From positions 15,567,193 to 15,631,192 of the forward strand of contig JAGTTD010000009.1 in the NCBI GenBank assembly GCA_018398585.1: 64,000 nt of DNA, read 5' to 3'. The stretch is from Simmondsia chinensis. Its lineage: Eukaryota > Streptophyta > Magnoliopsida > Caryophyllales > Simmondsiaceae. The notes beneath the pieces are model-generated. The model worked only from the letters and a program-made list of their open reading frames with translations. It searched no databases and was not told where the DNA came from. This document shows, piece by piece, positions 19,739 to 63,840 of the stretch (positions are counted from its first letter, which is position 1; each line of letters opens with the position of its first letter). The translations under genes and the position numbers were made by a program.

Positions 19739-21694
19739 GTGGCACGCAAAGTCCTATGCAAATCACAAGGAGGGCCACCAAACAACAAAGTGACTTGGTG
19801 GTGGTGTAGGGAGGTCCAAGGCAGGATTAAGGAGAAATGTGATTGCTTCAAAGAGTGGGTTCGAAGTGAAGATGAAGAAAAGAGACAACAGTACAAACAA
19901 GCAAAGAAGGAAGGTAAGATAGCAGTAAGAGACACACAATCTAAAGCCTTTGAAGATTTCTATAAAAGGTTGGATACAATTGAGAGAGTTAGGGACCTCT
20001 ATAGAATTGCAAAAGTAAGAGAGAGGAAGACTAAAGACCTGGATCAAGTGAGGTGCATAAAGGGGGGCAGATGGACGAGTGCTCCTGGATGAGCAACAAA
20101 TTAAATCTAGGTAGAAATCCTATTTTCACGATCTATTCAATGAAAAGGGAGATCCAGAGGCATCACCAGGAGAACTACAAGCATCGGCGGAGCAAAGGGC
20201 CGACTGCTACGGCACAAGAATTAGAACCGAGGAAGTTAGGGAAGCATTGAGGAAGATGGGTAGGGGTAAAGTAGTCGGCCCAAACGAAATACCCATTGAG
20301 GCATGGAAATGCACTGGAGAAATGGGTATCAGATGGCTAACCAAATTATTCAACCAAATCTCCAAGGGAAAAAGATGCCTGATGAATGGCAGAAGAGTAC
20401 AATAGTTCCTATGTATAACAACAAAGGCGACATTCAAAGTTGTGCTAACTACAGAGGCATCAAACTAATGAGCCATACCTTGAAGCTGTGGGAGCAGGTC
20501 ATAGAAAGAGGGTTGCGACAAAGAGCAGAGGTCTCAGAGAATCAATTTAGATTTATGCCAAGCAGGTTGACGACAGAAGCCATCCATCTCTTAAGGAGGT
20601 CAATAGGGTACTACATTGGTAGACAAAAGGACCTTCATTTGGTTTTCATTGATTAGAAGAAGGCATATGATAGGGTCAAGAGATAGCGTCTACAGAGGGT
20701 CTTGGAGGGCAAAGGCATCCCTCAGCCCTATATACGAGTCATCAAAAACATGTACAAAGATGCCCAAACTAATGTGCGAACAATAGAAGGGTATACAGAC
20801 GTTTTTACCATTACAATTGGGGTACACCAAGGATCAGTCTTGAGCCACTTCCTGTTCATTTTGATTTTGGACAAGCTCACAAGGCACATCCGAGGGGACA
20901 TGCCTTGGTGCATGCTCTTCACATATGATACAGTCCTAGTGGGAAAATCTAGGGAGGAGGTGAATGAGAAACTTGAACTTTGGAGGATGGCCTTAGAATC
21001 GAATGGTCTGAGACTCAGTAGATCTAAGATTGAGTATATGGAACTCAAGTTCTGCACCTCTACCATGCCAAACACAGAAGTCATCAAGATTAGATCAGAG
21101 TGCATACCACAGAAAGCATGTTTTAAATATTTGTGTTCCATGATCCAACAAAATGACGAAGTGGACACATATGTCAACAATAGGATTAAAGTGGGGTGGC
21201 ATAAATGGAGGATAGCCTCTGCGATAGTCTGCGATAGGAAGTTCCTGTTAAAGTTAAAGGGTAAATATTACAAGACAGTAGTGAGACCGGCTATGTCCTA
21301 TGGGGCAGAGTGCTGGCTAGTTAAGTGTTATCACAAGCAAAAGCTGAAGGTGGCCGAGATGAGGATATTGAGATGGATGTGTGGACACACAAGGAAGGAC
21401 AGGATAACAAATGACGTTATAAGAAGTAAATTAGGCGTCGCATCAATAGAGGATAAGTTGATGGAGCAATGTCTACGGTGGTTTGGGCATGTTAGGTGGA
21501 GACCCACCGCTGCCCCTGTCAGGAGATGCGTACAACTACAGATTACAGATGGAAAAAGAGGGAGAGACCTGCCAAAGAAGAGTTGGGTGGAGACGAATCT
21601 ACAGGACCTCGTCTATCTCAACCTAAATGAAGAGATGGCCTTAGATAGCGCTCAGTGGAGGATTAAGATAGGTGTAACTGATATAGCAGTGTAG
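19739..21694 (+). pseudogene. RTE reverse transcriptase, inactivated
   Basis: RT copies element RNA by target-primed reverse transcription at nuclear DNA nicks. Conserved blocks are visible in three successive frames: the basic connector (19739-20092), fingers (ANYRGIKLMS, about 20442) and thumb/C-terminus with LRWFGHV (about 21470). Palm motif B reads GVHQGSVLSHFLF (about 20817). The catalytic FADD is changed to FTYD (LFTYDTVLV, about 20918-20944), which removes the first aspartate of the pair. In-frame stops also interrupt FID.KKAYDRVK (about 20655) and the next turn (about 20685). Frame changes occur between 20092 and 20303. The original protein started upstream of the truncation, so the ATG at 19739 is not a real start. 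Confidence 0.88.
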
Positions 21695-22758: not shown

Positions 22759-23722
22759 ATTTGCCTAGTAGGGGTAAAAAACAACATTATTCGCCAAGTA
22801 GGAGAAAAAACAACATTATGCACCCAGTAGAGGTAAAAAAAATAATGGTATTCACCCAGTAGGAGAAAAAATAACATTATTCGCCCAGCAAACGTAAAAA
22901 ACAACATAATTCGCCTAGCAGGGGTAAAAATCAACACTATTCACCCAGCAGGAGTAAAAATCAACACAATTCGCCCAATAGGAGAAAAAACAACATTATT
23001 CACCTAGTAGAGATAAAAAACATCATTATTCGCCAAGTAGGAGAAAAAATAACATAATTCGCCCAGTAGGGATAAAAATCAACACTATTTGCCTAGTAGA
23101 GGTAAAAATCAACACAATTTATCCGGTAGGAGAAAAAACAATATTGTCCTCCCAATAGATGTAAAAAACAACATAATTCGCCCAGTAGGGGTGAAAATCA
23201 ATACTATTCACCCAGTAGAGGTAAAGAACAACACAATTCGCCCAGTAGGGATAAAAATCAACATAATTCGCCCAGTAGGGATAAAAATCAACACAATTCG
23301 CCCAGTAGGGGTAAAAATCAGCACAATTCACCCATTAAGGGAAAAAACAACATTATTCACTCAACAGGGGTAAAAAATAACATAATTTGCCCAAGAGGGT
23401 AAAAAATCAACACTATTCGCCTAGTAGAGGTAAAGAACAACACTATTCGCCTAGTAGAGGTGAAAATCACACAATTTGCCCAGTAGGGGTAAAAATCAAC
23501 ACTATTCGCCCAATAGGGGTAAAAATCAATACTATTCGCCCAATAGGGGTAAAAATCAATACAATTCGCCCAGTAGGAGAAAAAACAACATTATCAGCCT
23601 AGTAGAGGTAAAAATCAACACTATTCGCCCAGTAGGGTTAAAAAATAACATCATTCGCCCAGTAGGGGTAAAAAACAACATTACTCGCTCAGTAGGGATA
23701 AAAATCAATACAATTCGCCCAT
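22759..23722 (+). repeat. 30-bp minisatellite array (about 32 units)
   Basis: The unit is close to TTCGCCCAGTAGGGGTAAAAA followed by TCAACAYAA, repeated about 32 times with point variants and one-base indels. Because the unit is a multiple of three, long but meaningless reading frames run through it. The right flank (ATTCGCCCATATGATGAC to TTCTTTTAAGATACATT, 23712-23774) is homologous to the inverted flank of the related array at 57.2 kb. The whole cassette therefore belongs to one dispersed repeat. Confidence 0.9.
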
Positions 23723-23774
23723 ATGATGACAAAATAGTGTAAACGCATCCCTCTTTACTTCTTTTAAGATACAT

Positions 23775-26700
23775 TGAACAATGGGGGCTTGGTCTTCTTG
23801 CTCAAATGGAAGTAAGGGAGCAAGAAGAGGTGGGGCGGTTACCTTCACCCAAAGTGAAGATACCGCCTGGCTTTCGCCTCATGTGAAGGCTTTGGTATGC
23901 TAGGTCCCTTGAATAATGGGGGCTTGGTTTTCTTGCTCACATGGAAGTAAGAGAGCAAGAAGAGGTGGGGCGGTTACCCTTCACCAAAAATGAAGGAACC
24001 GCCTAGCTTTCACCTAATGTGAAGACTTTGGTATGCTAAGTCTCTTGAACAATGGGGGCTTGCTCTTCTTGCTCAAATGGAAGTAAAGGAGCAAGAAGAG
24101 GTGGGGCAGTTACCTTCACCCAAATTGAAGATACCGCCTGGCTTTTGCCTAATGTGAAGGCTTTGGTATGCTAAGTCCATTGAACAATGGGGGCTTGGTT
24201 TTCTTGCTCACATGGAAGTAAGAGAGCAAGAAGAGGTGGGGCGGTTACCCTTGACCAAAAATGAAGGAACCGCCTGGCTTTCACCTAATGTGAAGGCTTT
24301 GGTGTGCTAAGTCCCTTAAACAATGGGGGCTTGGTCTTCTCGCTCAAATGGAAGTATGGGAGCAAGAAAAGGTGGGGCAGTTACCGTCACCGAAAGTGAA
24401 GGTACCGCCTGGCTTTCACCTAATGTGAAGGCTTTGGTATACTAAGTCCCTTGAACAATGGGGGCTTGGTTTTCTTGCTCACAATGAAGTAAGAGAGCAA
24501 GAAGACGTGGGGCGGTTACCCTTCACCTAAAATGAAGGAACCGCCTGGCTTTCACCTAATGTGAAGGCTTTGGTATGCTAAGTCCCTTGAACAATGGGGG
24601 CTTGGTTTTCTTGCTCAAATGGAAGTAAGAGGGCAAGAAGAGCTGAGGCGGTTACCCTTCACCCAAAGTGAAGATACCGCCTGGCCTTCACCAAATTTGA
24701 AGGCTTTGGTATGCTAAGTCCCTTGAACAATGGGGGCTTGGTTTTCTTGCTCAAATGGAAGTAAGAGAGCAAGAAAAGGTGGGGCGGTTACCCTTCGCCT
24801 AAAATGAAGGAACCGCCTGGCTTTCACCTAATGTGAAGGCTTTGGTATGCCAAGTCTCTTGAACAATAGGGGCTTGGTCTTCTTGCTCAAATGGAAGTAA
24901 GGGAGCAAGAAGAGGTGGGGGGGTTACCCTTCACCCAAAGTGAAGATACCGCCTGGCTTCACCTAATGTGAAGGCTTTGGGATGCTAAGTCCCTAGAACA
25001 ATGGGGGCTTGGTTTTCTTGCTCACATGGAAGTAAGAGAGCAAGAAGAGGTGGGGCGGTTACCCTTCACCTAAAATGAAGGAACCGCCTCGCTTTCACCT
25101 AATGTGAAGGCTTTGGTATGCTAAGTCCCTTAACCAATGGGGGCTTGGTCTTCTTGCTCAAATGGAAGTAAGGGAACAAGAAGAGGTGGTGCCGTTACCT
25201 TCACCCAAAGTGAAGATACCGCCCGGCTTTCACCTAATGTGAAGGCTTTGATATGCTAAGTCCCTTGAACAATTGGGGCTTGGTTTTCTTGCTCACATGG
25301 AAGTAGGAGAGCAAGAAGAGGTGGGGCTGTTACCCTTCACCAAAAATGAAGGAACCGCCTGGCTTTCACCTAATGTGAAGGCTTTCGTATGCTAAGTCCC
25401 TTGAACAATGGGGGCTTGTTTTTCTTGCTCACATGGAAGTAAGGGAGCAAGAAGAGGGGGGGCGGTTACCCTTCACCTAAAGTGAAGGTACCGCTTGGCT
25501 TTCACCTAATGTGAAGGCTTTGGTATACTAAGTCCCTTGAACAATGGGGGCTTGGTTTTCTTGCTCACAATGAAGTAAGAGAGCAAGAAGAGGTGGGGCG
25601 GTTACCCTTCACCTAAAATGAAGGAACCGCCTGGCTTTCACCTAATGTGAAGGCTTTGGTATGCTAAGTCCCTTGAACAATGGGGGCTTGGTTTTCTTGC
25701 TCAAATGGAAGTAAGAGAGCAAGAAGAGCTGAGGCGGTTACCCTTCACCCAAAGTGAAGATACCGCCTGGCCTTCACCAAATTTGAACGCTTTGGTATGC
25801 TAAGTCCCTTGAACAATGGGGGCTTGGTTTTCTTGCTCAAATGGAAGTAAGAGAGCAAGAAAAGGTGGGGCGGTTACCCTTCGCCTAAAATGAAGGAACC
25901 GCCTGGCTTTCACCTAATGTGAAGGCTTTGGTATGCTAAGTCTCTTGAACAATAGGGCCTTGGTCTTCTTGCTCAAATGGAAGTAAGGGAGCAAGAAGAG
26001 GTGGGGGGGTTACCCTTCTCCCAAAGTGAAGATACCGCCTGACTTTCACCTAATATGAAGGCTTTGGGTTGCTAAGTCCCTAGAACAATGGGGGATTGGT
26101 TTTCTTGCTCACATGGAAGTAAGAGAGCAAGAAGAGGTGGGGCGGTTACCCTTCACCTAAAATGAAGGAACCGCCTAGCTTTCACCTAATGTGAAGGCTT
26201 TGGTATGCTAAGTCCCTTAACCAATGGGGGCTTGGTCTTCTTGCTCAAATGGAAGTAAGGGAGCAAGAAGAGGTGGGGCGGTTACCTTCACCCAAAGTGA
26301 AGATACCGCCCGGCTTTCACCTAATGTGAAGGCTTTGGTATGCTAAGTCCCTTGAACAATTGGGGCTTGGTTTTCTTGCTCACATGGAAGTAAGAGAGCA
26401 AGAAGAGGTGGGGCGGTTACCCTTCACCAAAAATGAAGGAACCGCCTGGCTTTCACCTAATGTGAAGGCTTTCGTATGCTAAGTCCCTTGAACAATGGGG
26501 GCTTGTTTTTCTTGCTCACATGGAAGTAAGGGAGCAAGAAGAGGTGGGGCGGTTACCCTTCACCTAAACTGAAGGTACCGCCTGGCTTTCACCTAATGTG
26601 AAGGCTTTGGTATACTATGTCCCTTTAACAATTGGGGCTTGGTTTTCTTGCTCACATGGAAGTAAGAGAGCAAAGAGAGGTGGGGCGGTCATCCTTCACC

Positions 26701-26869
26701 TAAAGCGAAGGAACCGCCCGGCTTTCACCTAATATGAAGGCTTTGGTATGCTAAGTCTCTTAAACAATGGGGGCTCGGTTTTCTTGCTCAAATGGAAGTA
26801 AGAAAGCAAGGAGAGGTGGGGCGGTCGTCCTTCACCTAAAGTGGAGGAACCGCCTGGCTTTCACCTAAT
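23775..26869 (+). repeat. 136-bp tandem array (about 23 units, dimeric higher-order pattern)
   Basis: Unit starts sit at 23776, 23911, 24047, 24182, 24318, 24453 and 24589, a regular alternation of 135 and 136 bp. Two unit types alternate: one with TCTTCTTGCTCAAATGG and CACCCAAAGTGAAGATACC, the other with TTTTCTTGCTCACATGG and an AAATGAAGGAACC variant. Each unit contains short inverted repeats: CTTGCTC/GAGCAAG, CTTTCACC/GTGAAGG and GGCGGTTACC/GGTACCGCC. It occupies the place of the hypervariable 3' untranslated region of Tat-lineage elements. Confidence 0.92.
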
Positions 26870-26883
26870 GCAAAGAAAATGCA

Positions 26884-27312
26884 GGCAATAAACTCTCACC
26901 AGCTTGAGAGCCCGTGGTTTTTTGGCCCCATCTAACACGGGGGCGGTTGTGTGTCCCATCTAACATCAGGGACGGGCGGTAAACTCTCACCAGCTTGAGA
27001 GCCCTCGGTTTTTTGGCCCCATCAAACACGGGGGCGGTTGTGTGTCCCATCTAACATCAGGGACGGGCGGTAAACTCTCACCAGCTTGAGAGCCCGTGGT
27101 TTTTTGGCCCCATCTAACACGGGGGCGGTTGTGTGTCCCATCTAACATCAGGGACGGGGGCTAAACTCTCACCAGCTTGACAGCCCGCAGTTTTTTTGCC
27201 CCATCTAACACGGGGGCAGTCGTGTGTTCCATCTAACATCAGGGATGAGCTGTAAACTCTCACCGTTTTGAGTGCCCGCGGTTTTTGTCCCGTCTAACAC
27301 GAGGACAGCTGT
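26884..27312 (+). repeat. 92-bp tandem array, left copy (about 4.7 units)
   Basis: The unit contains AAACTCTCACCAGCTTGAGA, GGTTTTTTGGCCCCATCTAA and CACGGGGGCGGTTGTG, with a period of 91-92 bp. It is homologous in reverse orientation to the array at 32572-33866. The last unit is diverged. Confidence 0.9.
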
Positions 27313-27533
27313 TTGCATCTCTGCCAGAGAGGGGCCGGTAATAAGCCCACTCAAATATAAGCAAGCACAACAAAGTAGCAAACCTTAATAGGAATACTGA
27401 TTATTATATATAACAAGAGTATCCATACATATTACAACAAAATTTCATTACACCGAGTTTCCGATAATACAACCACATCACCAAAAGTAATGTACACTAA
27501 AGACTTAAAACACCCTCCTACCGTTACCACGAC

Positions 27534-28681
27534 CTACCCAAATGGGGGATGAAGAATCATGGGATCATTCCCACAACGAAACAAAGAGCTCGAATATGGA
27601 AACAGCTGGGTATGGTATTCCCCTTGGTAGTGTCCCAAGAAAACCGGATGGCCACGATGGTCTCCACGAATGGCGCACTGGAACACCTGATTGCGTGCGG
27701 TAAATGTCAGGTGTTCTTTTGACACAGTAAAGCTTGTAATAGCTGGATCCCATCTACCTCCAGACCACGGCAGCCGAACGAATAACCGCTCCGCCTGATC
27801 CAAGAAGAAGGATCTTCCACATTAGTCAGCGTCCAGATGGTAAACACTAGGCTCCGGAGCGTTATCAGGCATAGTGAATGGGGCCCTGTGGTCACCTCCC
27901 ACCACCTCGAAATCTTTGCATCTCGGCTCGAGGACAGGTTATCCCAAACCACGCCCGGATGGGTCATGTTATGAACAGCCCCTATATCGGTATTCCAACG
28001 AACTAATGGGCGGTTATTGCTACCGTCAATATAATGGCCCCAATCAGACAAAAAGAAAAGCTCCCTATGCAAACAAACGTGGTCCATAAGAAAAACATTT
28101 CGGGGACCTACGTCTAGGCTTCCCCAAAAATTCCAATCGCCCTGCCAATAATACACCCGGTATGCGGTAGGCCAAAAGCCGTGGCAGGGGTAGGGCAAGT
28201 CCATTGTTATAAGGAAAAGGTAGAACCCGAACTCAGAAGTAGAGTCGAAACACCCAAACACTAGGTTTAAAGGGGCATCCAGACAGCTCATCAAAATACC
28301 GTTAGGTAACCCCACCAACTGACGTATGCCCAAGGCAGGGTTACACACGAATAACTTGGAGAGGTTATAGTCTCGATACAATATCAAACCACCCTGAACA
28401 CCGAGAACTCTAATATTGTCCGTCAGCACCTCCGTTAACTCTGGCGGCATAACTGGAGAAAAGTCCCCGGCAGAGGAAAAGGCTCCCAGATTATCACAAG
28501 AAAACTCGCTTTCTGGTTGTAACAAGACCCCATCAGCATCACGCTCAAGAGCGCGGAAAGACTGTTTCTTAAGAAAATCACCATCGGTTAGTAAACCATA
28601 AAATTCAGAAGAGGCGCAGCAAAACCTTAAAAGAGATTTGGCAGGAAGCTAAGATAACATTTCACGAGTTACGTCCTCCAT
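27534..28681 (-). pseudogene. element-borne F-box-like protein (antisense ORF 2, left copy)
   Basis: The start codon at 28681-28679 (MEDVTREML) is followed by an F-box-type helix region (LPAKSLLRFCCASSEFYGLL, about residues 12-31). F-box proteins join substrates to SCF ubiquitin ligases through Skp1. The C-terminal part has the F-box-associated motif LFVCNPALGIRQLVGLP, repeated Trp/Tyr-rich strands (YYWQGDWNFWG) and the end FLGHYQGEYHTQLFPY. The gene is broken by a TAG at codon 11 (Trp in the other copy) and by one frameshift near 27790. From 28525 to 27803 it is open. It lies antisense to its host element, its promoter next to the 3' LTR. No intron is evident. Whether it descends from a host F-box gene is inference. 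Confidence 0.75.
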
Positions 28682-28753
28682 AATCAACTCTCAAGATACT
28701 AATTAGATAATGAAAGGGACAAGGAATACCCAAAGGGTGAAAGTATGAAGGGG

Positions 28754-28796
28754 TATTTATACACTTTGAAGTCAAAGAAACTTTGACCTCAAAGTG
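28754..28796 (-). promoter_or_regulatory. promoter of antisense F-box ORF (left copy)
   Basis: On the minus strand an inverted repeat (28796-28762) is followed directly by TATAAATA (28761-28754), 73-80 bases before the ATG. The repeat arms are CACTTTGAGG and CTTCAAAGTG, around TCAAAG/CTTTGA. It contains TTGACC and TTGACT, both W-box-like (WRKY-binding) cores. The same arrangement exists in the right copy. Confidence 0.6.
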
Positions 28797-28806
28797 GGGG
28801 GCTAAC

Positions 28807-29116
28807 TGATAAATACAAAAGTGACCACCAGGCGGTACAGGGCCCAGGAGCCACTACCACCTCCCAGCATAACCGCCACCAGGCGGCACAGGGCCTAGGA
28901 GCCATTGCCGCCTCCTTGAACACCCCACCTAAATAACCTCACCTCTAGAAATCACCAAGGCCCCCACTGGCTGAAGGGGCCAGGCGGTACCCAACCCCCA
29001 TTACTTGCTACCCAAGCATACATTCCCCTATAAATAAGGGAAGGGACCTCACAAGAAAGACAAGGAACTTGAGCCTCGTTCCACCCTCAAGAACCCAACC
29101 AAAAAATCACGAAACA
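28807..29116 (+). repeat. 3' LTR of left Tat-lineage element (310 bp)
   Basis: Starts TGATAAATAC after the purine tract and ends ACGAAACA. Shares CCTATAAATA.GGGAAG, ACAAGGAACTTGAGC and AAGAACCCAAC with the right element's LTRs. It is about 200 bp shorter because it holds roughly two of the 54-bp subrepeats, against six in the right LTRs. Confidence 0.8.
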
Positions 29117-29373
29117 GTGGCATTCTTATAAGAGGATTAGAGCGTGAGAATGATGAATCCTAACCCTACATTACAAGGGACAGCCAAAATTTGTTGAGTA
29201 TTTCAAAAAAGAAAAAATTTCTCTCCCATACCCCTTCTTTCTTTCGACCCCATGTAAGTGTATGGGCTGTAAATTGTTATTTTTTTGAATGTTCAATAAA
29301 TCTTGGCCGTCCATTACAATGGAGGGCCAGGATTCATCCCTCTCACGTTCTCGCCCTCTCATAAGAACACCGC
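29117..29373. mobile_element. MITE-like inverted-repeat element 1
   Basis: About 80 bp at the left (GTGGCATTCTTATAAGAGG... to ACAGCCAAAATTTGTTGAG) is repeated in reverse at the right (CAATAAATCTTGGCCGTCC... to CTCTCATAAGAACACCGC). About 90 bp of T-rich sequence lies between. It starts at the last base of the left LTR. A long inverted repeat without coding capacity fits a MITE or Mutator-type element. The target duplication was not resolved. Confidence 0.6.
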
Positions 29374-29390
29374 TCTATATATATATAGCA

Positions 29391-29636
29391 TGACTCTTAT
29401 GTGAAGATGAGAAATGAGAGGGGGAAAAAAAAAAAAAAAAAAAAAATTATTGGGTCTAAATTAAGGGCAAAAATTTTAAAATTACTTTTACACTTCTTAT
29501 CAATGTCAATGGCTTAGATTTCTTTGATTTAAATCGAATTACTATTATTTTCTCCTCTTATCTCTCACTCAACAAATCTTGGCTATCCATTGTAATAAAG
29601 GGCCATAATTTGTCCCTCTCATTCTCTCATAAGAAC

Positions 29637-29641
<5 letters not shown>
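29391..29641. mobile_element. MITE-like inverted-repeat element 2 (same family)
   Basis: The right arm (CAACAAATCTTGGCTATCC to CTCTCATAAGAACGCC, 29571-29639) is a direct homologue of the right arm of element 1. The left arm (ACTCTTATGTGAAGATGAGA, 29391 onward) is its diverged inverse. The interior begins with an A-run at 29425-29446. A (TA)n tract (29644-29676) follows. Confidence 0.5.

Positions 29642-29643
<2 letters not shown>

Positions 29644-29676
<33 letters not shown>
29644..29676. repeat. (TA)n microsatellite
   Basis: About 33 bases of uninterrupted alternating TA. Confidence 0.95.
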
Positions 29677-29677
<1 letters not shown>

Positions 29678-29894
29678 CATTTTTTTGCCCTTACGTTAAT
29701 ATTGAAATTCTGTCAACCCCCAATGAAACCTTAATGCTTTTTCTCAAATAACATGTAAACATAAAATATATTTATTTTATATACTTAAAAAATATAATAA
29801 AAATTTGTTAATTTAAAAAAAATACTTTTATTTCATATTATTCATTGATCTATGTGTTTTTTTTTTTTTAAATGGTAAAGACATGAAAGAGACT

Positions 29895-30260
29895 TTAACG
29901 TCCGCGCCTCAGCACCGAACATCCTGAAGCCTCAGCACTAGAGATGAGGAGGGGGGCGGATGGCTCCACAAGGTACAGCTGGAACCCTGTACTCCCCAAA
30001 CCTTCGCTAGCCATAAAATCTGCAGATCTATTCGCCTCGCGGAATACATGAGAGAACTTAAGATTTCTAAACTTTCCTACAAGGGCTCTGATTTCATCTC
30101 TGATGGTTCTGATATCATTTGGGCAAGAATACTCTTCCTTGAAAGTTTTAATGACGACCTCATTGTCTCCTTCGATTATTACACTATTGGCTCCAAGGGA
30201 TAGGGCCTCATACATACCAACACGAGCAGCAGACGCCTGAGCCACAATGATTGGAGTTTC
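29895..30260 (-). pseudogene. RNase H-like (RVT_3 type) domain fragment
   Basis: An open stretch of about 120 codons carries ARVGMYEALSLGANSVIIEG, with the GDN of the second catalytic position, and HVFREANRSADFMASEGL at the C-terminal end. This is the pattern of the plant RNase H-like domain found at the C-terminus of L1 LINEs and in many related host fragments. The N-terminal part with the first catalytic Asp (usually a DGS-type motif) is missing, so the piece is incomplete. It stands alone between MITEs and the Tat-lineage element, with no RT nearby. Confidence 0.7.
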
Positions 30261-30375
30261 ATTTCATTAATCTATGTTATCTATTATTATTGTAGACCCC
30301 CCGTTTCCCCGCCAAAACCATCAAACCCCAAATCCAATCATTTCAAAAAGGGTCAATATTGCTTCCAAGTTCAGT

Positions 30376-30548
30376 AATCATGAATGAAATTGAATTAATT
30401 ATTAAAAGCATTATTCAAATTTAATAATCTGTTTTCTTCCGAATTCCATTCTCCTTCTAATGCCAAAATTAGCACTTATTATCAAATTCAATGCTTCGAA
30501 GTCCAATAATGTCAAAATCATGAATTCAATTGAATTAATTATTAAAAG
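30376..30548 (+). repeat. pre-insertion tandem duplication at the right element's target site
   Basis: Two copies of an approximately 140-bp unit (ATCATGAA.. to AATTAATTATTAAAAGCATTA..) begin near 30376 and 30516. The second copy is split by the retrotransposon and resumes at 46432 with AAAAGCATTATTTAAATTGA. The intact first copy therefore serves as an internal record of the empty site. Confidence 0.7.
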
Positions 30549-31061
30549 TGTTTATGGTGTTTTTGGTTGGGTCCTTGGGGGTAGAACCAAGCTCAAGTTC
30601 CTTGTCCTTCTTATGAGGTCTCTTCCCCTATTTATAGGGGAATGTATGCGTGGATAGCAAGTAATGGGGGTAGGGTACCGCCTGATTCCCATAGCCAATA
30701 GGGGTATTGGTGCTTTCTAGAGGTGAGGTTACTTAGGTGGGGGTAACCAAGGAGACGGTAATGGCTCCAAGGACTTGTACCGCCTGGTGGCGGTTATGGG
30801 GGGAGGCGGTAATGGCTCCTGGGACCTGTACCGCCTGGTGGTGGTTATGCAGGGGCGGTAATGGCTTCTGGGACCTGTACCGCCTGGTTGCGGTTATGCA
30901 GGGAGGCGGTAATGGCTCCTGGGCTCGTTACCGTCCTAGGGTAGTCATGTGGGGAGGCGATAGTGGCTCCTGGGCTCGTTACCATCCCCGGGTAGCCTTG
31001 TGGGGAGGTGGTAGTGGCTCCTGGGCTCGTTACCGCCTAGGTGTAACTTTTATATCAACCA
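30549..31061 (-). repeat. 3' LTR of right Tat-lineage element (513 bp)
   Basis: On the minus strand begins TGGTTGATATAAAAG and ends CACCATAAACA. CCCCTATAAATAGGGG (about 30626-30641 on the minus strand) is a clear TATA element. About six 54-bp subrepeats (GGCGGTAATGGCTCCTGGGA.. on the plus strand, 30752-31050) fill the upstream part. The purine tract CAAAGTGGGGGGCTAAC lies just before it. Confidence 0.93.
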
Positions 31062-31071
31062 GTTAGCCCCC

Positions 31072-31114
31072 CACTTTGAGGTCAAAGTTTCTTTGCCCTC
31101 AAAGTGTATAAATA
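31072..31114 (+). promoter_or_regulatory. promoter of antisense F-box ORF (right copy)
   Basis: An inverted repeat (CACTTTGAGG at 31072-31081, CCTCAAAGTG at 31097-31106) is followed at once by TATAAATA (31107-31114), 63 bases before the ATG. It starts only 10 bases from the LTR end and overlaps the purine tract region used by the element on the other strand. The left copy conserves the arrangement. Confidence 0.6.
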
Positions 31115-31176
31115 CCCCTCTACTCCCCTCATTTGGGATACCCCTTTCTTTCGAATCTCTTGTTAATACTCTAACC

Positions 31177-32328
31177 ATGGAAGATGTCACTCGTGAAATG
31201 TTAGCTTGGCTTCCCGCTAAGTCACTTTTGAGGTTTTCGTGTGCGTCCTCATGGTTTCATAATTTGCTTACCGATCATGAGTTTGTTACAAAACAATCCT
31301 TTCATACACTTAACCGTGATGCTGATGGGTTTTGTTGCAACCGGAAGGCGAGTTTTCCCGCGACAGTTTAGGAGCTTTTTCATTTACCGGGGATTTTTCC
31401 CCAGTCGTGCCGCCGGAGATAATGGAAGTGCTGACAGACAACATTAGGGTTCTCGGTGTTCAGGGTGGTTTAGTACTATACCGAGATTACAATCTTTCAA
31501 AGCTATTTGTATGTAATCCTGCCCTAGGCGTGCGTCAGCCGGTACCACTGCCCGAGGGCATCTTGAGGAATTGCTTAGACGTTCCCTTGAACTTATTGTT
31601 TGGGTGTTTTGACTCTACCCAGCAGTTCGGCTTTTATCTTTTCCGTATGATAATGGACTTATCTTACCCGTGCTATGGCTTTTGGCCTAACGAGTACCAA
31701 ATCTATTTTTGGCGGGGTGACTGGAACCTGTTGGGAGGCCTCAACGTGGGTCCTCGGAACGTTGACCTTATGGATCATGTCTGTCTGTGCGGGGAGCTTT
31801 TCTTCTTGTCCGACTAGCGCCACTGTATTGACGGCACTAATAATCATCCTTATATAGTCCGTTGGAATACCGAGACGGGGGGCCTCTCATCATTTGGCCC
31901 TTCCCGACGTAATTTGAGACAACTTGTCCATTTGTGGGGAGGCCAAAATTGCGAAATGGTGGGGAGTGAGAATGGGACCCCCTGTTCTGTGCCTGGTTGT
32001 GATTCGAAGCTCGGTTTTTACCATATGGACGTTAACCAACGTGGGGGATCCTTCCTCTTGGGTAAGGCGGGATCAATTATTCGTCCGACTACTGTGGTCT
32101 GGGGGCAGATGGGACCCGGCTATCAGAAGCGTCGCCGTGTCAAAGGAACATATCACATTTACGGCGCGTAACCAGGTGTTTCAATGTGTGCTCCAAGGCG
32201 AACATCGTGGCCGTGCCGTCTTCTTGGGACATTACCAGGGGGAGTTCCACACCCAGCTGTTCCCCTATGCAGGCTCTTTGTTTCGTTGCGGGAATGACCC
32301 CCTGGTGCTGTATGTACAGTTCGGGTAG
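31177..32328 (+). pseudogene. element-borne F-box-like protein (antisense ORF 2, right copy)
   Basis: The start is ACCATGG at 31177, a strong plant initiation context. The N-terminus MEDVTREMLAWLPAKSLLRF and SCASSWFHNLLTD is a good F-box. A one-base loss near 31325 shifts the frame, which continues at 31332-31814 with LFVCNPALGVRQPVPLP. A TAG at 31815 stands where the left copy has Trp. Further frameshifts occur near 31870-32080. The end FLGHYQGEFHTQLFPY..FRCGND matches the left copy to the last residues (32328). Aligned with the left copy, the ancestor would be about 380 residues, F-box plus F-box-associated-like domain. It runs away from the 3' LTR, opposite to the element. The two copies are broken at different sites, so decay followed separate insertion. 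Confidence 0.78.
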
Positions 32329-32571
32329 CCGTAGTAAGTGCGGGAGGATATTTTGATCTTTTTACTATTTTTTACTCTAGGCGGCGTAGTTGCATTGTTA
32401 TCAACGTGTTGTAATGGAATTCTGCTGTAACATACTTATATGAATATTGTCGTTGTGCATACGTATATATATATATATTAACGCTTTATTTGCCTTTTTG
32501 CTCCCCCTTGTTACTTTGCTATGCTTGTACATGTCTGTATAAGTATGATACTTGCACTATGTTGGTTGAGG
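32329..32571 (+). other. 3' flank of F-box ORF
   Basis: T-rich sequence with a TA run at 32466-32479. It could serve as the 3' UTR of the antisense gene. No other feature seen. Confidence 0.4.
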
Positions 32572-33866
32572 CGGCGCGAACCGCCATGGTGTCAGACGGG
32601 GTACCACCAACCGCCCCTGTGTTAGGTGGGGCACACAACCAAGGCTCTCAAACCGGTGGGAGTTTACCGCCAGTCCCAGATGTTAGACTGGATGCAACCA
32701 ACCGCCCCCATGTTAGGTGGGGCATACAAGCGCGGGCTCTCAAAACGGTGAGAGTTTACCCCCAGTCCTAGATGTTAGACGGGACACAACCGACCGCCCC
32801 TATGTTAGGTGGGACATACAAGCGCGGGCTCTCAAACTGGTGAGAGTTTACCGCCAGTCACAGGTATTAGACGGGACACAACCGACCGCCCCTATGTTAG
32901 ATGGGGCACACAACCGCGGGCTCTCAAACCGGTGAGAGTTTACCGCCAGTCCTCGATGTTAGATGGGACACAACCGACCGCCCCAATGTTAGGTGGGGCA
33001 TACAAGCGCTGGCTCTCAAACTGGTGAGAGTTTACTGCCAGTCCCAGATGTTAGACGGGATACAACCAACCGCCCCTATGTTAGGTGGGGCATACAAGCG
33101 CGGGTTCTCAAAACGGTGAGAGTTTATCCCCAGTCCTAGATGTTAGACGGGACACAACCGACCGCCCCTATGTTAGTTGGGACATACAAGAGCGGGCTCC
33201 CAAACTGGTGAGACTTTACCGCCAGTCCCAGATGTTAGACGGGACACAACCTACCGCCCCTATGTTAGATGGGGCACACAACCGCGGGCTCTCAAACCCG
33301 TGAGAGTTTACCGCCAGTCCTAGATGTTAGATGGGACACAACCGACCGCCCCTATGTTAGGTGGGGCATACAAGCGGGGACTCTCAAACCGGTGAGAGTT
33401 TATGGCTAGTCCCAGATGTTAGACGGGACATAACCGACCGCCCCTATGTTAGATGGGGCACACAACCGTGGGCTCTCAAACCGGTGAGAGTTTACCGCCA
33501 GTCCCAAATGTTAGACGGGACCCAACCGACAGCCCATATGTTAGATGGGGCACACAACCGTGGGCTCTCAAACCGGTGAGAGTTCACCGCCAGTCGTAGA
33601 TGTTAGACGGGACACAACCGACCGCCCTAATGTTAGGTGGGGCATACAAGGGCGGGCTCTCAAACTGGTGAGAGTTTACCGCCAGTCCCAGATGTTGGAC
33701 ATGACACAACCGGCCGCCCCTATGTTAGATAGGGCACACAACCGCGGGCTCTCAAACCGGTGAGAGTTTACCGCTTGCCCCAGATGTCAGACGGGACACA
33801 ACTGACCGCCCCTATGTTTGGTGGGGCGTACAAGTGCGGGCTCTCAAATCGGGGAGAGTTAACAGC
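32572..33866 (-). repeat. 92-bp tandem array, right copy (about 14 units)
   Basis: Strict 92-bp period (reading-frame starts at 32717, 32809, 32901 and so on). The plus-strand unit contains GGTGAGAGTTTACCGCCAGT, GATGTTAGACGGGACACAAC and CGACCGCCCCTATGTTAG. It is homologous in reverse to the short array at 26884-27312. It sits between the F-box ORF and the 144-bp array. Confidence 0.93.
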
Positions 33867-36800
33867 CTACGGGTCCTTCACGGTAGGTGAAGGATGACCG
33901 CCCAACTTTTCCTTGCCCTTTTGTTTTAACTTGGGCAAGAAGGACCAAACCCCCATTGTTTAAGGCACTTAGAAAACCATGGCCTTTTACTTTAGGTGAA
34001 AGCCAACCGCTAGCGGGTCCTTCACGGTAGGTGAAGGATGACCGCCCAACCTCTTCTTGCCCTTTTGTTTTAACTTGGGCAAGAAGGACCAAGCCCCCAT
34101 TGTTTAAGGGACTTAGAAAACCATGGCCTTTCACTTTAGGTGAAAGCGGAGGATGACCGCCCAACCTCTCCTTCCCCTTTTGTTTTAACTTGGGCAAGAA
34201 GGACCAAGCCCCCATTGTTTAAGGGAATTAAAAAACCATGTCCTTTCTCTTTAGGTGAAAGCCAACCGCCTGCGGGTCCTTCACGGTAGTTGAAGGATGA
34301 CCGCCTAACCTCTCCTTGCCCTTTTGTTTTAACTTGGGCAAGAAGGACCAAGCCCCCATTGTTCAAGGGACTTAGACAACCGTGGTCTTTCACTTTAGGT
34401 GAAAGCCAACCGCCTGTGTGTCCTTCACATTAGGTGAAGCACAACCATCTAACCTCCCCTTGCTCCTTTGCTTTAACTTGAGCAAGAAGGACCAAGCCCC
34501 CATTGCTCAAGGGACTTAGACAACCGTGGTCTTTCACTTTAGGTGAAAGCCAACTGCCTGTGTGTCCTTCACATTAGGTGAAGGACAACCGCCAAACCTC
34601 TCCTTGCTCCTTTGCTTTAACTTGAGTAAGAAGGACCAAGCCCCCATTGTTCAAGAGACTTAAACAGCCGTGGTCTTTCACTTTAGGTGAAAGCCAACAG
34701 CCTGCGAGTCCTTCACGGTAGGTGAAGGATGACCGCCTAACCTCTCCTTGCCCTTTTGTTTTAACTTGGGCAAGAAGGACCAAGCCCCCATTGTTCAAGG
34801 GACTTAGAAAACCATGGCCTTTCACTTTAGGTGAAAGCCAACCGCCAGCAGGTCCTTCACGGTAGGTGAAGGATGACCGCCCAAACTTTCCTTGCCCTTT
34901 TGTTTTAACTTGGGCAGGAAGGACCAGGCCCCCATTGTTTAGGGGACTTAGAAAACCATGGCCTTTCTCTTTAGGTGAAAGCCAACTGCCTGCAGGTCCT
35001 TCACGGTGGGTAAAGGATGACCGGCCAACGTCTCTTTGGCCCTTTGTTCTAACTTGGGCAAGAAGGACCAAGCCCCCATTGTTTAAGGGACTAAGAAAAC
35101 CTTGGCCTTTTACTTGAGGTGAAAGCCAACCGCCAGCGGGTCCTTCACGGTAGGTGAAGGATGAAGGCCCAACCTCTCCTTGCCCTTTTGTTTTAACTTG
35201 GGCAAGAAGGACCAAGCCCCCATTGTTTGAGGGACATAGAAAACCATAGCCTTTCACTTTAGGTGAAAGCCAACCGCTTGCGGGTCCTTCACGGTAGGTA
35301 AGGGATGACCGCCCAACCTCTCCTTGCCCTTTTGTTTGAACTTTGGCAAGAAGGACCAAGCCCCCATTGTTCAAGGGACTTAGACAACTGTGGTCTTTCA
35401 CTTTAGGCGAAAGCCAACCGCCTGCGTGTCCTTCACGGTAGGTGAAGGATAACCGCCCAACCTCTCCTTGCCCTTTTATTTTAACTTGGTCAAGAAGGAC
35501 CAAGCCCCCATTATTTAAGGGACTTAGCAAACCATGGCCTTTCACTTTTGGTGAAAGCCAACCGCCGGCGGGTCCTTCACGGCAGGTGAAGGAAGACCGC
35601 CCAACCTCTCCTTGCCCTTTTGTTTTAACTTGGGCAAGAAGGACCAAGCCCGCATTATTTAAGGGACTTAGAAAACCATGGCCTTTCACTTTAGGTGAAA
35701 GCCAACCACCTGCGGGTCCTTCACGGTAGGTGAAGGATGACCGCCCAACCTCTCCTTGCCCGTTTGTTTTAACATGGGCAAGAAGGACCAAGCCCCCATT
35801 GTTCAAGGGACTTAGACAACTGTGGTCTTTCACTTTAGGTGAAAGCCAACCGCCTGCGTATCCTTCACATTAGGTGAAGGACAACCGTCTAACCTCTCCT
35901 TGCTCCTTTGCTTTAACTTGAGTAAGAAGGACCAAGCCCCCATTGTTGAAGGGACTTGGAAAACCGTGGTCTTTCACTTTAGGTGAAAGCCAACCGCTTG
36001 CATGTCCTTCACATTAGGTGAAGGACAACCGTCAAACCTCTCCTTGCTCCTTTTGCTTTAACTTGAGCAAGAAGGACCAAGCCCCCATTGTTCAAGGGAC
36101 TGATACAACCGTGGTCTTTCACTTTAGGTGAAAGCCAGCCGCCTGCGGGTCCTTCACGATAGGTGAAGGATGACCGCCCAACCTCTCCTTTCCTTTTTAT
36201 TTTAACTTGATCAAGAAGGACCAAGCCCCCAAGATTTAAGGGACTTAGAAAACCATGGCCTTTTACTTTAGGTGAAAGCCAACCGCCAGCGGGTCCTTCA
36301 CGGCAGGTGAAGGATGACCGCCCAACCTCTCCTTGCCCTTTTGTTTTAACTTGGGCAAGAAGGACCAAGCCCCCATTGGTTGAGGGACTTAGAAAACCAT
36401 GGCCTTTCACTTTAGGTGAAAGCCAACCGCCTGCGGGTCCTTCACGGTAGGTGAAGGATGACCGCCCAACCTCTCCTTGCCCTTCTGTTTTAACTTGGGC
36501 AAGAAGGACCAAGCCCCCGTTGTTCAAGGGACTTAGACAACCGTGGTCTTTCACTTTAGGTGAAAGCCAACCGCTTGCGGGTCCTTCACTGTAGGTGAAG
36601 GATGACCGCCCAACCTCTCCTTGCCCTTTTGTTTTAACATGAGCGAGAAGGACCAAGCCCCCATTGTCCAAGGGACTTAGACAACCGTGGTCTTCCACTT
36701 TATGTGAAAGGCAACCGCCTGCGGGTCCTTCACGGTAGGTGAAGGATGACCACCCAACCTCTCCTTGCCCTTTTGTTTTAACTTGGGCAAGAAGGGTCAA

Positions 36801-37300
36801 TCCCCCATTGTTTAAGGAACTTAGAAAACCTTGGCCTTTCACTTCAGGTGAAAGCCAACCGCCTGCGTGTCCTTCACATTAGGTGAAGGACAACCGTCTA
36901 ATGTCTCCTTGCTCCTTTACTTTAACTTGAGCAAGAAGAAACCTGGCCCCCATTGTTCAAAGGACTTAGACAACCGTGGTCTTTCACTTTAGGTGAATGC
37001 CAACCGCCTGCGTGTCCTTCACATTAGGTGAAGGACAACCATCTAACCTCTCTTTGGTCCTTTGCTTTAACTTGAGCAAGAAGGACCAAGCCCCTATTGC
37101 TTAAGGGACTTAGACAACCGTGGTCTTTCACTTTTGGTGAAAGCCAACCGCCTGTGGGTCCTTCACGGTAGGTGAAGGATGACCGCCCAACCTCTCCTTG
37201 CCCTTTTGTTTTAACTTGGGCAAGAAGGACCAAGCCCCCATTGTTTAAGAGACATGGAAAACCTTGGCCTTTCACTTCAGGTGAAAGCCAACCGTCTGGC
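33866..37300 (-). repeat. 144-bp tandem array (about 24 units), 3' UTR of right element
   Basis: The unit on the plus strand includes TTCACTTTAGGTGAAAGCCA, GGTCCTTCACGGTAGGTGAA, CAACCTCTCCTTGCCC and AAGGACCAAGCCCCCATTGT. Adjacent full units are 144 bp apart (for example 34790 and 34934). It is homologous in reverse to the 136-bp array at 23.8-26.9 kb. The period is a multiple of three, so a spurious 419-codon frame runs along the minus strand (34574-35833). Some units at the left end are shorter. Confidence 0.92.
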
Positions 37301-37599
37301 ATTCTGTACTTATGATAGGCACGTGACGCTTTCCCTCCTTTTCCAGTTCATTTTCCCCCCCTTTTTCTCTATAAAGCTCTAATACTCGCCTTCTCTATTT
37401 TTACTTTACCAATCCCGACTCTGTTTCTGCATTTCTTCCTCAAATTCTCCTCAGCCTTTCGCTTTAACTCATTTTCGTGACGATTAAAAGGTACTTTGCT
37501 CATTTTTCTTAGTTTTTCGAAAAGCTTTCTGGGTTCTTTCCCTCTCCTTTCTCCTTTTTTTATTTTTACGTTGGTGGGGATTCCTCTGGTCGGGCGTCC

Positions 37600-40326
37600 G
37601 TGGCGGAACCTGGGGCTCCCATGGTGGAACTTGAGGTTCCCCTGGAGGAACCAGACGAGAGCATTGAGCTGGACCCCCAGTTCGTAGCCGACCTTGCCGC
37701 CTTTCTTGCCGGCGTTCTTGCCATTAAACCTGGCGAGGCGGGGGTGTTTGATGATCAGGGCTTTTCCCCTTCGGTGTGCTTGACTGGTTCTCAGACGGTA
37801 TTGTCTCCACCTGACACCAGTGCCCCCGCCTCCCCAACGGAAAATTCTGGTGGGATTTCTTCTCTTTCCCAGGGTAAGACCCCTTCTAATTTTTGTCTCT
37901 TTATTTTGATGAACTAGTTAAATGGCTCCAAAACGCGTGCAGAAGGAAAGCGGGCGTTCAGACCATGTTGGAGAAGCATCTTCTGGTGAGGGGATGATGG
38001 TGGAGCCGTTATCTCAACTGGCTCCGTCATCGCCAACGTCTCCTAAGGAAATGGCCGTGCGTGCTCAGTATCCCGATACAGTCGCGGCTCTTCCCCTAGG
38101 AAACCTTGTATCCTCACTAGCCACGGTAGAGGGGATAAAAAAGTTCCGTGAAAAGTATTTTTTTTCCCAATGATTATGATGTCATTGGCCCTCGGGAGAG
38201 CGACAACATTTTATACCCTCGTTCCTCTCGAATTGTTTGCCGTTTGTGTGGACTCCTTGGAGGCCGGCCTTTGGTTTCCCTTGCCGTCCATCCTGGAATG
38301 GGTTCTTAGGCAATACTCCGTGTGCCCCAGCCAAGTCAGTCCTAACGGCTTCCGCAATTTTTACGGTTACCTCCTTACCTGCTTTGTGGCTGGGTTAACT
38401 CCCTCCACTCATAGTTTTGATTTTTTATTTAGGTCCAAGCAGTTAAAAGGTGTGGTAACCTTTGAGGGGAAGAGCGGGGTTAGGTTCGTGCAGGCTAACC
38501 CTTCCAAAGTAAATTTCTGGCAGAACAAATTCGTTTGGGTAAGGCCTCCACTCCCCCTCGGTTTCCCCTACTACTAGACCCCCCCTGAATAAATGTAGCA
38601 TCCCCTCAGCGGACAAGCTATCCAACTTAGATAGGGAGGTAGTTCACTATTTTGAGAGGGATCCGAGCACGCGGTACCTGGCTACCAAAGAGGTGTTGTG
38701 CCAGGAGAAAGTTTTGATTCGTGCAGGTCTATGCTCTCGGCCAGTCAGCGGTGAGTAAATTCCTGAGGACGATAGAATTCTTCTTTTTTAGTTCTCGTTT
38801 TCTCTTATTAATGCTACCCTGGCTCCTTAATGGTTTTCTTGACAGGACTTGAAGCCGATGTAGATATTGTATCTCTCACGGAAGCATACCATGGAGAGAA
38901 AGGCAGGAGGGAACCAAGGGGTGAAGGAGAGGGCAGAAAAACCGCCCAGAAGGGCAAAGAGGCGGTTACCGAGGGTGCAGGAGGAGATGGTGTTGAGTAG
39001 CCGGCAAGGAGGAGTAAGAGGGCGGCTACTGAAGAGGGCGGGGGTCCTCCCCCCAAGAAGGTTACGCGGTCTAAGAAACCACATGGGGAGGTCCTTTCTT
39101 CTAGCCGTGGGTTGGCAGTATCCTCCCCTCATGAAGGTACCCCCGAGGCTCCCATAGTTCAAGCCTCCCCTGCTGTGGAGAGGCCCTCTTAGGTTGTGAT
39201 TGATCAAGAAGTCTCTATCGCCGCCCCTTGCCCTGAAGTTGTCCCAGGACCTGCCGTGGAGGAAGCAGCCAGTGCTGTGCCAGCTGTTGTAGTTACCTTG
39301 CCAGAGGTGACCGTGGCTGAACTTCCCCCCACCCTAGCTACACTGGCGGGTGGCCCAACCGCCAAGGCTGCTGGGATAGGCCTAGGTATAGGTCCACAGG
39401 CAGAAGGAGAGGGAGAAGGTGGGGAGTTTTTAAGGGTGCCGGTAGAGGTTCCAGAACCATCCTTGACAGAGGCGGCAGGATCAATGCCCATGCCTCAGGA
39501 AGAGGGATCTTCTATCCAAGCCTCCCCTTTACCGCCAGAATCGCCTTACGTGGCCATGACTGCGAATGTGAGGCCTGACGTGCAGGTAGATGATGACATT
39601 CTTCCCATGTTCCATATAAACCTGTCCGCCCCTCATGGTTTTACACACGCCCCTCCCGAATTCCAAAGGGAAGCTCCTAGGGGTGAGGATGCTACTACTA
39701 CTGAAGGCCCTCGGTCTGAGGGTCCTACTGGCCTTTCTCCTAATCAATGCATTGGCGCTATCCAACGTGCCCTGGCGGTCCTTCCACCAGGGGAACCTCA
39801 AGTGGCAACCAGAGACACGGTAGCCGCCTGTTTTGCTAAGGTAAATGTCGCTTACCCTAACTTTGCTTTGTTATCATGTTGACCGCATGTTGTGATACTC
39901 TGTGTTTCAGGTTAGCACTCTATCGGTGGCCATGGCCCTAGGGTGGTTCCGTGAACAAGAAGCCGCTAGCCAAGAGCTGTCCCGGTTACGGGAGGAAAAC
40001 AAGAACAGGCCCGAGCTATGGGGAGAGAGAGAGACATGCTAGCAGCTAAGCTGCAGAGTTTGCAAGACAGGGCTGACAAGTTGCAGTGGGAAAAAGAGGC
40101 GCTGGCCTTTGAAGCTCAAGGACTGAGGGAAGAGTTGTCTTCCCAACGAGCATGGTCAGAGAGTCTTGTTATCGAAGCTCAGCGTGCCCAAACCGAGGCT
40201 GTAGAGGCGGTTTCACGTTTTAAAGAAAGTCCTAAGTTTCATTCGTCCACGAGCACATATTACTGGGAGGGATTTGCCTCGGGTCTGTCCTCCTTTGCAC
40301 TATGTCTAGCCCAGAGCCACCCTTAG
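37600..40326 (+). pseudogene. antisense gene 1: Transposase_28-like/coiled-coil protein, apparently spliced
   Basis: Lies opposite to its host element, downstream of pol. An acidic N-terminus (37600-37873) precedes MAPKRVQKESGRSDHVGEAS (37922). It is followed by LEAGLWFPLPSILEWVLRQY, PSQVSPNGFRNFYGYLLTCF and FWQNKFVWVRPP (about 38255-38545), the plant 'putative gypsy type transposon' pattern (PF04195, from memory). Then come a Pro/Val/Glu-rich middle (39196-39882) and a coiled coil (SQELSRLREEN to SLVIEAQRAQTEA, about 39970-40210). Likely introns are CGGTGAGTAAAT..TTGACAG (about 38750-38846) and AAGGTAAATG..TTTCAG (39840-39910). A frame change near 38165 and stops break it. Function unknown. 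Confidence 0.75.
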
Positions 40327-40799
40327 CTCGCGGCAGATCGGCTCCGCCAGGACATTATCCGCTCTCGAGGGGGTGCTAGCAGCCGTTAGGTGTAGTCCCT
40401 AGGCTTAACTTTTGCTATTATCCCCTCCTCCCCCTTTTGTAGCTGTATAGAGAATATGAGGGGGCGCCTCTTATTGTAGTATCCCCCTATTTTTGCTTTG
40501 TACATACATTTGCGCTCGGTATGTTTAAGGGCACAAGTCCCCCTGCTTCCTTATCTAATGTACATTTTATTGGAGCTAATGATATTTCATCGTATGTTTT
40601 TGTTATTTTTCTACAAATCATGACTTTGATGGCCTCGGCCCTTGTTAAGCTATGCTAACGCAACCTTTGGATGCGTGCCGTTTATTTATGCACATGGGTA
40701 CCGCCCCATTTTTCTTGAGATACAGTTCATACGGCCTCTAGTTAAGTTTAATATTTTGCACAATCTTTTTATAACTGGAAAATCTACGCATAGTACCTT

Positions 40800-42070: not shown

Positions 42071-42104
42071 GTATTTACCGTTAGACTCTTGGATGTGGAC
42101 GCGT

Positions 42105-43910: not shown

Positions 43911-43925
43911 AAGTCCACCAATTTC

Positions 43926-44573
43926 TTAGCGCAGATGTCGAGGGAGGGAAGTGCCCAGATAAGTGTAACACCCAGGCTCCAGTTCGTACCTTTCCAGATG
44001 CGGTGGAGAAGGATGCTCTTTTGGGGGTGAACTCGATTTAAGGGGTTCAGCGGTCATTACCGCCAAGTTGGAGAAAGTGTGATAGTATTCTGAGAGCGCG
44101 CCATGCATGCCTCGTATTGTCATAACGCTCCCTGTATCCGCTTCAAATTTCATTGCCCGGTGATACGTAGATACTACCGCCCTTAGCCGATTTAGGGAGG
44201 GTCTCCCCAAGATGACGTTATAGGAGGAGGGAGCGCTTATAATGAGGAACTCTATCTTAACCGTTCGTTGATCATTCTCATTCCGAAAGATTGTGGGCAG
44301 CGTTATCTTGCCCTGCGGAAGAACGGGCGCCCCCGTGAAGCCCACAACGGGATACGGAGCTGGTGAGAGCACAGTAAGCGGTATACTCATCTTGTTGTAG
44401 CATTCCAAAAACAAGAAGTCCGTGGAACTTCCTTGATCGATTAAGATTCTGTGTACCGTGTGCTTACAGATATCAGCAGTAACCACAAGGGGATATTCTT
44501 GCCGTGCGTCCACTCCCTGGGCGTCCTCTTTAGTGAAACTGATACAACTGGGCACACTCCTGGCCGCGTCCAT
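43926..44573 (-). pseudogene. Tat-lineage aspartic protease segment
   Basis: Contains RILIDQGSSTDFLF, where DTGSS is usual; Thr to Gln next to the catalytic Asp is unfavourable. It also has YNVILGRPSLNRLRAVVSTY, the typical C-terminal protease motif of this lineage. It would cleave Gag-Pol into mature proteins. A stop (about 43926) separates it from RT. Confidence 0.85.
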
Positions 44574-44699
44574 TGCCCTTTTTGTGACCTTCGCTTCCCT
44601 TCTTGATAAGGGGGAGGCAAACTTTGGGGTGATGGTAGCGATGACCTTAGCCGCCGTGTCCTCAGGGCGTTTTTCACTTTCATTGTCGGTCTAGGCTTG

Positions 44700-45764: not shown

Positions 45765-45894
45765 GTGTGAGAAAAGTTGATGTATTTATTGTTAAAGTTG
45801 CTCAAACTGACCTTGGGTTACGTAATTGAGGTTGCGGCGCTCCCCATGGGGGGAGGAGCGGCTAGTGCTTGACATGAGAAGAGTTTTTAATGCC

Positions 45895-46431: not shown

Positions 46432-46436
46432 AAAAG

Positions 46437-63809: not shown

Positions 63810-63840
<31 letters not shown>

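Follow-up and report, generated by a model that had tools for sequence, protein, structure and literature searches.

What is an open reading frame (ORF) with an F-box-like N-terminus doing in retrotransposons, on the strand opposite to gag-pol? The question is raised by a stretch of 64,000 nucleotides in the 831 Mb assembly of Simmondsia chinensis (GCA_018398585.1; contig JAGTTD010000009.1, positions 15,567,193 to 15,631,192), hereafter the window, in which two long terminal repeat (LTR) elements each carry the remains of such an ORF next to their 3' LTR. I find that the ORF is a gene of these elements, that its position within them is conserved and that it has been under purifying selection. 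The balance leans towards a genuine accessory gene of a Tat/Retand family, likely a substrate adaptor of the SKP1-cullin-F-box (SCF) type that would remove a host protein limiting transposition. The features on which the argument starts are the following.

23774 to 29116, + strand: left element, of which just the 3' part is present (136-bp array, 91-bp array, ORF, 3' LTR)
27534 to 28681, - strand: left F-box-like ORF relic, one stop (codon 11) and one frameshift
30549 to 46431, - strand: right element, apparently Retand-type, with both LTRs (LTR comparison, target site duplication, domain scan)
30549 to 31061, - strand: 3' LTR of the right element; it contains a 51-bp repeat at about 30751 to 31041
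31177 to 32328, + strand: right F-box-like ORF relic, two stops and two frameshifts
32590 to 33867, no strand: 92-bp tandem array (repeat search)
33870 to 37298, no strand: 144-bp tandem array (repeat search)

Both relics derive from one 383-codon gene, antisense to gag-pol and starting about 115-125 bp inside the 3' LTR. That they are homologous and occupy equivalent places had been claimed in an earlier note on this DNA, and this holds: the alignment of the ORF and some 30 adjoining nt has 864 identical bases out of 1179, an inverted-repeat search of the window recovers both relics as arms, and the order of 3' LTR, ORF, 91-92-bp array and 136-144-bp array is, as also claimed there, the same in both elements. 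The note was likewise right that the inactivating mutations differ, as none is common to both relics, but it named only part of them: the left relic has an in-frame TAG at codon 11 and a frameshift near its 3' end, the right one two in-frame stops and two frameshifts. Changes between the relics fall 67, 52 and 180 times on the first, second and third codon position, and the ratio of nonsynonymous to synonymous differences per site (pN/pS) is 0.197 (bootstrap 0.156-0.247), while simulated neutral pairs average 0.709 and the lowest of 500 gives 0.521. No three-base pattern is seen between the window copies in the LTR, the 3' flank or either array. Chance as the source of the pattern between the two relics was rejected after a test with 58 copies.

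These copies belong to a large family in the genome, not to a pair. Nucleotide searches of the same assembly gave, for the two relics, the best 40 of 419 and the best 40 of 468 candidates, the window's own included, and a protein search gave 107 scored matches (71-100% identity) among 1927 candidates, again counting the place of the query itself; 94 of the 107 reach 1125 nt or more, as do 19 of the 20 that lack an in-frame stop. I read 58 copies, namely 39 of the right type and 17 of the left type plus the two window copies, and left out 22 other left-type places. The frame is uninterrupted in 11 (5 of 40 right type, 6 of 18 left type), each time over exactly 383 codons and without introns. 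Codon 11, a tryptophan codon, is a stop in 4 of the 58 copies, in both groups, which fits repeated hits at one mutable site. Just upstream of the ORF, a block formed by the LTR and polypurine tract (PPT) is present in 56 of 58 copies and ends 56-70 nt before the ATG; in ten stretches of 1.4 kb the sequence read includes only 91-199 nt upstream, so that the block is visible and the LTR itself hardly. Downstream, the 92-bp array is found in 45 of the 46 copies that have at least 1400 nt on that side, and the 144-bp units in 40 of 46.

The association also holds from the side of the LTR. The earlier note would have been undermined if most LTR copies lacked the ORF, which is not so as far as tested: in the best 40 of 459 LTR matches, two being the window's own, 17 lie directly beside the ORF and 13 are linked to it, as the other LTR, by distance and strand alone. 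Twenty of these links run via ORFs of the nucleotide searches and 10 more via ORFs of the protein search, and the remaining 10 matches may be solo LTRs, elements with an unscored ORF or elements without one. Within the right type, 26 of 39 copies (window copy aside) match the right relic of the window only to about position 1121-1133, and four of the five intact copies finish with a tail of the left type, a sign that the two lineages may have recombined within the gene.

Is the frame selected, or merely carried along? Between nearest-neighbour copies the median pN/pS is 0.52, and the more divergent the copies, the lower the ratio, down to 0.196 between the two groups, for which the median pS is 0.665. 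The most informative comparison is that of private with shared variants. Variants private to one copy comprise 405 nonsynonymous and 126 synonymous changes and 23 stops, which fits neutrality, since trinucleotide-matched random placement predicts a nonsynonymous to synonymous ratio (N/S) of 3.09 (2.56-3.71) and 24.6 stops. Shared variants, defined as two-state with each state in five or more copies, amount to 108.5 nonsynonymous and 203.6 synonymous changes, an N/S of 0.53 or about 0.17 of the neutral ratio (private against shared, Fisher p 6e-33 on rounded counts, a value that is not exact as the copies are related). By codon position the shared variable sites are distributed 82/58/222 and the private ones 193/205/184, and the 3' flank is flat for both classes (36/30/30 shared and 38/32/40 private in 48 copies). 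A ratio of nonsynonymous to synonymous rates near 1, which the earlier note had listed as damaging to its proposal, is thus ruled out for the old divergence by the relic pair, the between-group comparison and the shared variants alike. The constraint belongs to this one frame. Four of the five other frames give a shared N/S of 3.4-5.0; the fifth, which is antisense, gives 0.78, which I take to reflect a silent position shared with the coding frame, and it cannot be coding itself because it holds 31 stop-linked variants against 2.9. The simple reading is that the gene is needed while the element transposes and decays after insertion, since the private variants are neutral and the shared ones purified, and selection during transposition makes it an accessory gene rather than a passenger. 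Selection that is visible in the variants inherited through transposition, and not in the private ones, is what is expected if the product helps the element's own spread. The claim that a coding ORF existed before both insertions is strongly supported by the intact 383-codon copies and by this contrast.

How would such a gene be expressed? The region between the 3' LTR and the start codon contains the following features.

31062 to 31071, - strand: proposed PPT, GTTAGCCCCC on the + strand, adjoining the 3' LTR; the exact string is present in 33 of 55 copies
31072 to 31106, + strand: inverted repeat of 16 bp around a 3-nt loop, abutting the TATA box on its upstream side, its arms with a TTGAC core
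31107 to 31114, + strand: TATAAATA, 70 nt upstream of the ATG, putative core promoter for the antisense gene
28754 to 28761, - strand: TATAAATA of the left copy, 80 nt upstream of its ATG; inverted repeat at 28762-28796

In 50 of the 55 copies that have at least 120 nt upstream, the string TATAAATA is placed 70-80 nt ahead of the ATG, and a search of 66.8 kb of ORF found none. An 8-nt part of each arm of the inverted repeat is present in 44 of 55 copies, and I take the TTGAC core of the arms to be similar to the W-box of WRKY factors. Over the 63 nt that span the LTR edge, the PPT, the inverted repeat and TATAAATA, the window copies share 94% identity, against 50% for the leader from TATA box to ATG and 60% for the 3' flank. 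Judging from these motifs, the antisense gene is probably read from its own TATA promoter beside the junction of PPT and 3' LTR; Grande gene23 has its own promoter (PMC7264820). That the junction block is conserved while neutral sites are not could also be explained if lineages had exchanged their LTRs. Between the two groups the LTRs show 86% identity (28826-29105 against 30560-30842) despite near saturation of the silent sites of the ORF (pS 0.69), so that they have either been exchanged between lineages or are strongly constrained. Among the copies, the BLAST end of the unique LTR part varies from about 133 to 766 nt before the ATG, the 51-bp repeat blurring these ends; within the LTRs (30751-31041 and 46104-46405) the copy number of this repeat varies.

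What the protein is can be said less firmly. The F-box label is likely but weak, and comes from profile matches and predicted models of the N-terminus. The check by hidden Markov models (HMMs) that the earlier note proposed came out in part: PF00646 matches 9 of 11 intact N-termini (best E 7e-4) and PF12937 matches 8 of 11, and PF00646 is the top family in both window relics, whereas neither of the two full-length proteins scanned matches any Pfam family at E<=10 and the left 324-residue piece has no PF00646 match at E<=1. With a low-confidence AlphaFold model, all 13 Foldseek rows are entries of F-box protein complexes; cyclin F and SLY1, which I take to be F-box proteins, are among them. An F-box at the N-terminus is the usual arrangement in plants. 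For the body of the protein, Foldseek returns rows resembling a beta-propeller (best E 0.2), which are only a lead because the predicted local distance difference test (pLDDT) of the body is 36.

A number of observations weigh against the F-box assignment, besides the failure of the full-length proteins in Pfam. The PF00646 scores given, 14.7-15.8 bits, are below the gathering score of 20.5. Both AlphaFold models are of low confidence (pLDDT 49 and 36), the first includes 14 residues beyond a frameshift, and the structural Z of the F-box rows is only 2.0-4.0. A first N-terminal profile searched against the PDB gave yvyC as best match (E 0.073) and then FBXO22 (E 0.5); a second placed FBXO22 first (E 0.23), with two unrelated chains next (0.46 and 0.53), and another sequence search of the PDB gave no match. 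The full-length profile found no solved structure at E<=10. Nor is the F-box part more constrained than the rest, with a shared N:S of 10:17 in codons 1-40. In the protein database, no homologue was found for the left piece at E<=1e-3 (872 candidates) or for an 11-row profile at E<=10 (4774 candidates). Plants are represented in that database, as a gag control found seven proteins there, four of them annotated plant proteins. In viral and prokaryotic contigs 10 and 24 stretches fit a pattern and none was confirmed; as to a host donor gene, there was none in the protein database, and the search of the plant's own genome scored 107 of 1927 candidates. Finally, the copies read are best matches and no random sample.

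The preferred explanation is built from this material in several steps. The N-terminus would most likely be an F-box, predicted to dock on the host's SKP1/ASK, and the conserved remainder, predicted at low confidence to be all-beta, would bind the target. The element would in this way bring along an SCF substrate adaptor of its own, through which a host protein restricting transposition would be ubiquitinated and then removed. By analogy with viral silencing suppressors (P0, p22) and with a demethylase carried by orchid elements, the likeliest use seems to be that a ubiquitin ligase of the host is turned on a protein restricting the element. In its more specific form, which I hold only tentatively, an adaptor expressed in antisense from a promoter fused to the PPT/LTR junction would bring about the degradation of silencing or chromatin proteins of the host, as a counterpart of P0, and would be essential enough to be selected in several diverged lineages of one genome.

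The gene may be a selected accessory gene and yet encode something else, an unrelated protein as in other Tat antisense ORFs, with a resemblance to the F-box that is due to chance. The sub-threshold Pfam scores, the lack of a full-length match and the low-confidence models speak for this, and most antisense ORF proteins are reported without clear similarity (PMC7264820). I nevertheless regard it as rather unlikely, given that PF00646 comes out on top in both window relics and matches most intact copies, that PF12937 matches nearly as many, that the Foldseek rows are uniformly from F-box complexes, and that the N-terminus is where plants usually have this domain.

A real F-box adaptor could also act on the element's own products, for instance in GAG turnover, timing or self-limitation of copy number, instead of on host defence. 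The evidence for the gene is the same, and an own antisense promoter would permit separate control; a self-limiting gene should, however, easily be lost by cheater copies, yet this gene is kept across groups at a median pS of 0.665, and I consider self-regulation improbable.

Selection and position leave far less room for the other alternatives. A host gene that was transduced as a passenger and has no function for the element is conceivable, as plants have many F-box genes. Host genes are also known to be captured by LTR elements of plants (PMC7264820), but this very improbable account is already contradicted by the shared N/S of 0.53 against about 3.1 expected, by private variants that fit neutrality and by a frame of 383 codons in every one of the 11 intact copies, whichever of the two groups they belong to. 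For such elements it has been suggested that antisense transcripts work through double-stranded RNA or interference with gag-pol (PMC7264820), so that only the RNA would matter and the ORF would be incidental; with constraint tied to one frame (0.53 against 3.4-5.0 in four others) this is hardly credible either. A free-standing family of host F-box genes beside LTRs, or repeatedly hit by insertions, is the least probable of all, as the same junctions recur nearly everywhere in the copies read, the upstream block being missing in only two of 58 (one with 2175 nt upstream and no match, the other with only 147 nt upstream) and the downstream array in one of 46.

The further features of the right element are these.

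38170 to 38577, + strand: antisense ORF with Transposase_28 (TRP28, PF04195), E 5e-6, 27.0 bits against a cut-off of 26.2; right element only
39196 to 39882, + strand: second antisense ORF, 228 codons, beside the TRP28 ORF, without Pfam match
41348 to 45764, - strand: gag, reverse transcriptase (RT), RNase H, second RNase H (PF13456) and integrase, in broken pieces (domain scan)
45917 to 46431, - strand: 5' LTR, 94.4% identical to the 3' LTR at 30549-31061

The right element is flanked by a 5-bp target site duplication, AAAAG, at 30544-30548 and 46432-46436. Its second RNase H (PF13456, E 2e-9) lies between the RT_RNaseH and integrase pieces, an arrangement given in PMC6317226 as a criterion common to Ogre and Retand. 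This domain, the TRP28 antisense ORF and the tandem arrays bear out the earlier assignment to the Tat lineage, and the domain and structure criteria of PMC6317226 and PMC11963269 support a Tat element of the Retand kind. A Cas_Csy2 match at 34574-35833 was taken as an artefact, its frame running through the 144-bp array. As to gag-pol of the left element, seven protein pieces of the right element found no relative in 1-30500 and 46440-64000 at E<=1e-3 apart from a distant Ty3 element at 9405-11204, and the RT at 20702-21694 shows no relation to that of the right element. Elsewhere in the window, a leucine-rich-repeat receptor kinase gene (4353-6023 and 14224-14928) is seemingly split by a separate Ty3 element (gag to integrase, 7559-12052). 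Two arrays, roughly 34 kb from each other at 22759-23721 and 57212-57628, are built of a 29-30-bp unit whose core is TTCGCCCAGTAG or its complement; the second adjoins a 408-bp tandem duplication.

The closest known systems are the antisense ORFs of Retand/Tat elements themselves (Grande gene23, RIRE2, Retand ORF4 and the TRP28 ORFs), which share the lineage, the region between pol and 3' LTR, the antisense direction and nearby arrays with the present gene (PMC7264820, PMC11963269); the right element has the TRP28 ORF in common with them. For antisense ORFs of recent Retand elements, the domains given in PMC11963269 for the 63 clusters with 10 elements or more are TRP28, Smc, mitotic checkpoint protein, DNA polymerase III subunits, DNA topoisomerase 2 and Mis12, to which its Table 1 adds TolA and a recombination inhibitor; none of these is an F-box, and its main text does not contain the words F-box, ubiquitin or SKP1; F-box is likewise absent from the main texts of PMC6317226, PMC7264820, PMC12786077 and PMC9289625. 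The literature, searched by titles and the starts of abstracts, with supplements and most subscription papers outside this scope, gave no report of an F-box gene in a Tat/Retand element. Tat antisense accessory genes have no established function (PMC7264820, PMC11963269); here one of them has evolved under frame-specific purifying selection during the spread of its family and neutrally after insertion, and the F-box reading adds a biochemical guess that can be tested, predicted binding to SKP1.

Tat-family elements of orchids carry an ORF for an AlkB-type (2-oxoglutarate-dependent dioxygenase, 2-ODD) demethylase of N6-methyladenosine (m6A), an extra domain that was kept over several replication rounds and is thought to act on host RNA control; the domain differs from that of the F-box-like ORF (PMC9289625). 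Traffic between F-box genes and transposons is likewise found in Caenorhabditis, where F-box genes captured the helix-turn-helix of a transposase, but it runs the other way: there an F-box gene of the host acquired a domain from a transposon (PMC12062965), while here a transposon carries an F-box-like gene. Plant F-box proteins, the adaptors of SCF ligases, likewise have an F-box-like N-terminus followed by a long part, which in the retrotransposon ORF is probably beta-rich, although no homologue of this ORF was found in the protein database that holds plant proteins; one of them, FBW2, targets AGO1 (PMC9035678). The silencing suppressors P0 of poleroviruses and p22 of criniviruses are cases in which an F-box-like motif encoded by a parasite meets the SKP1 of its host (PMC6593998, PMC6784205). 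They are viral proteins, likened to the present one by description only; P0 of some poleroviruses targets AGO1. If the guess of SKP1 binding is right, transposons would join viruses in hijacking plant ubiquitin ligases, and the target would point to a host factor that limits the Tat/Retand lineage.

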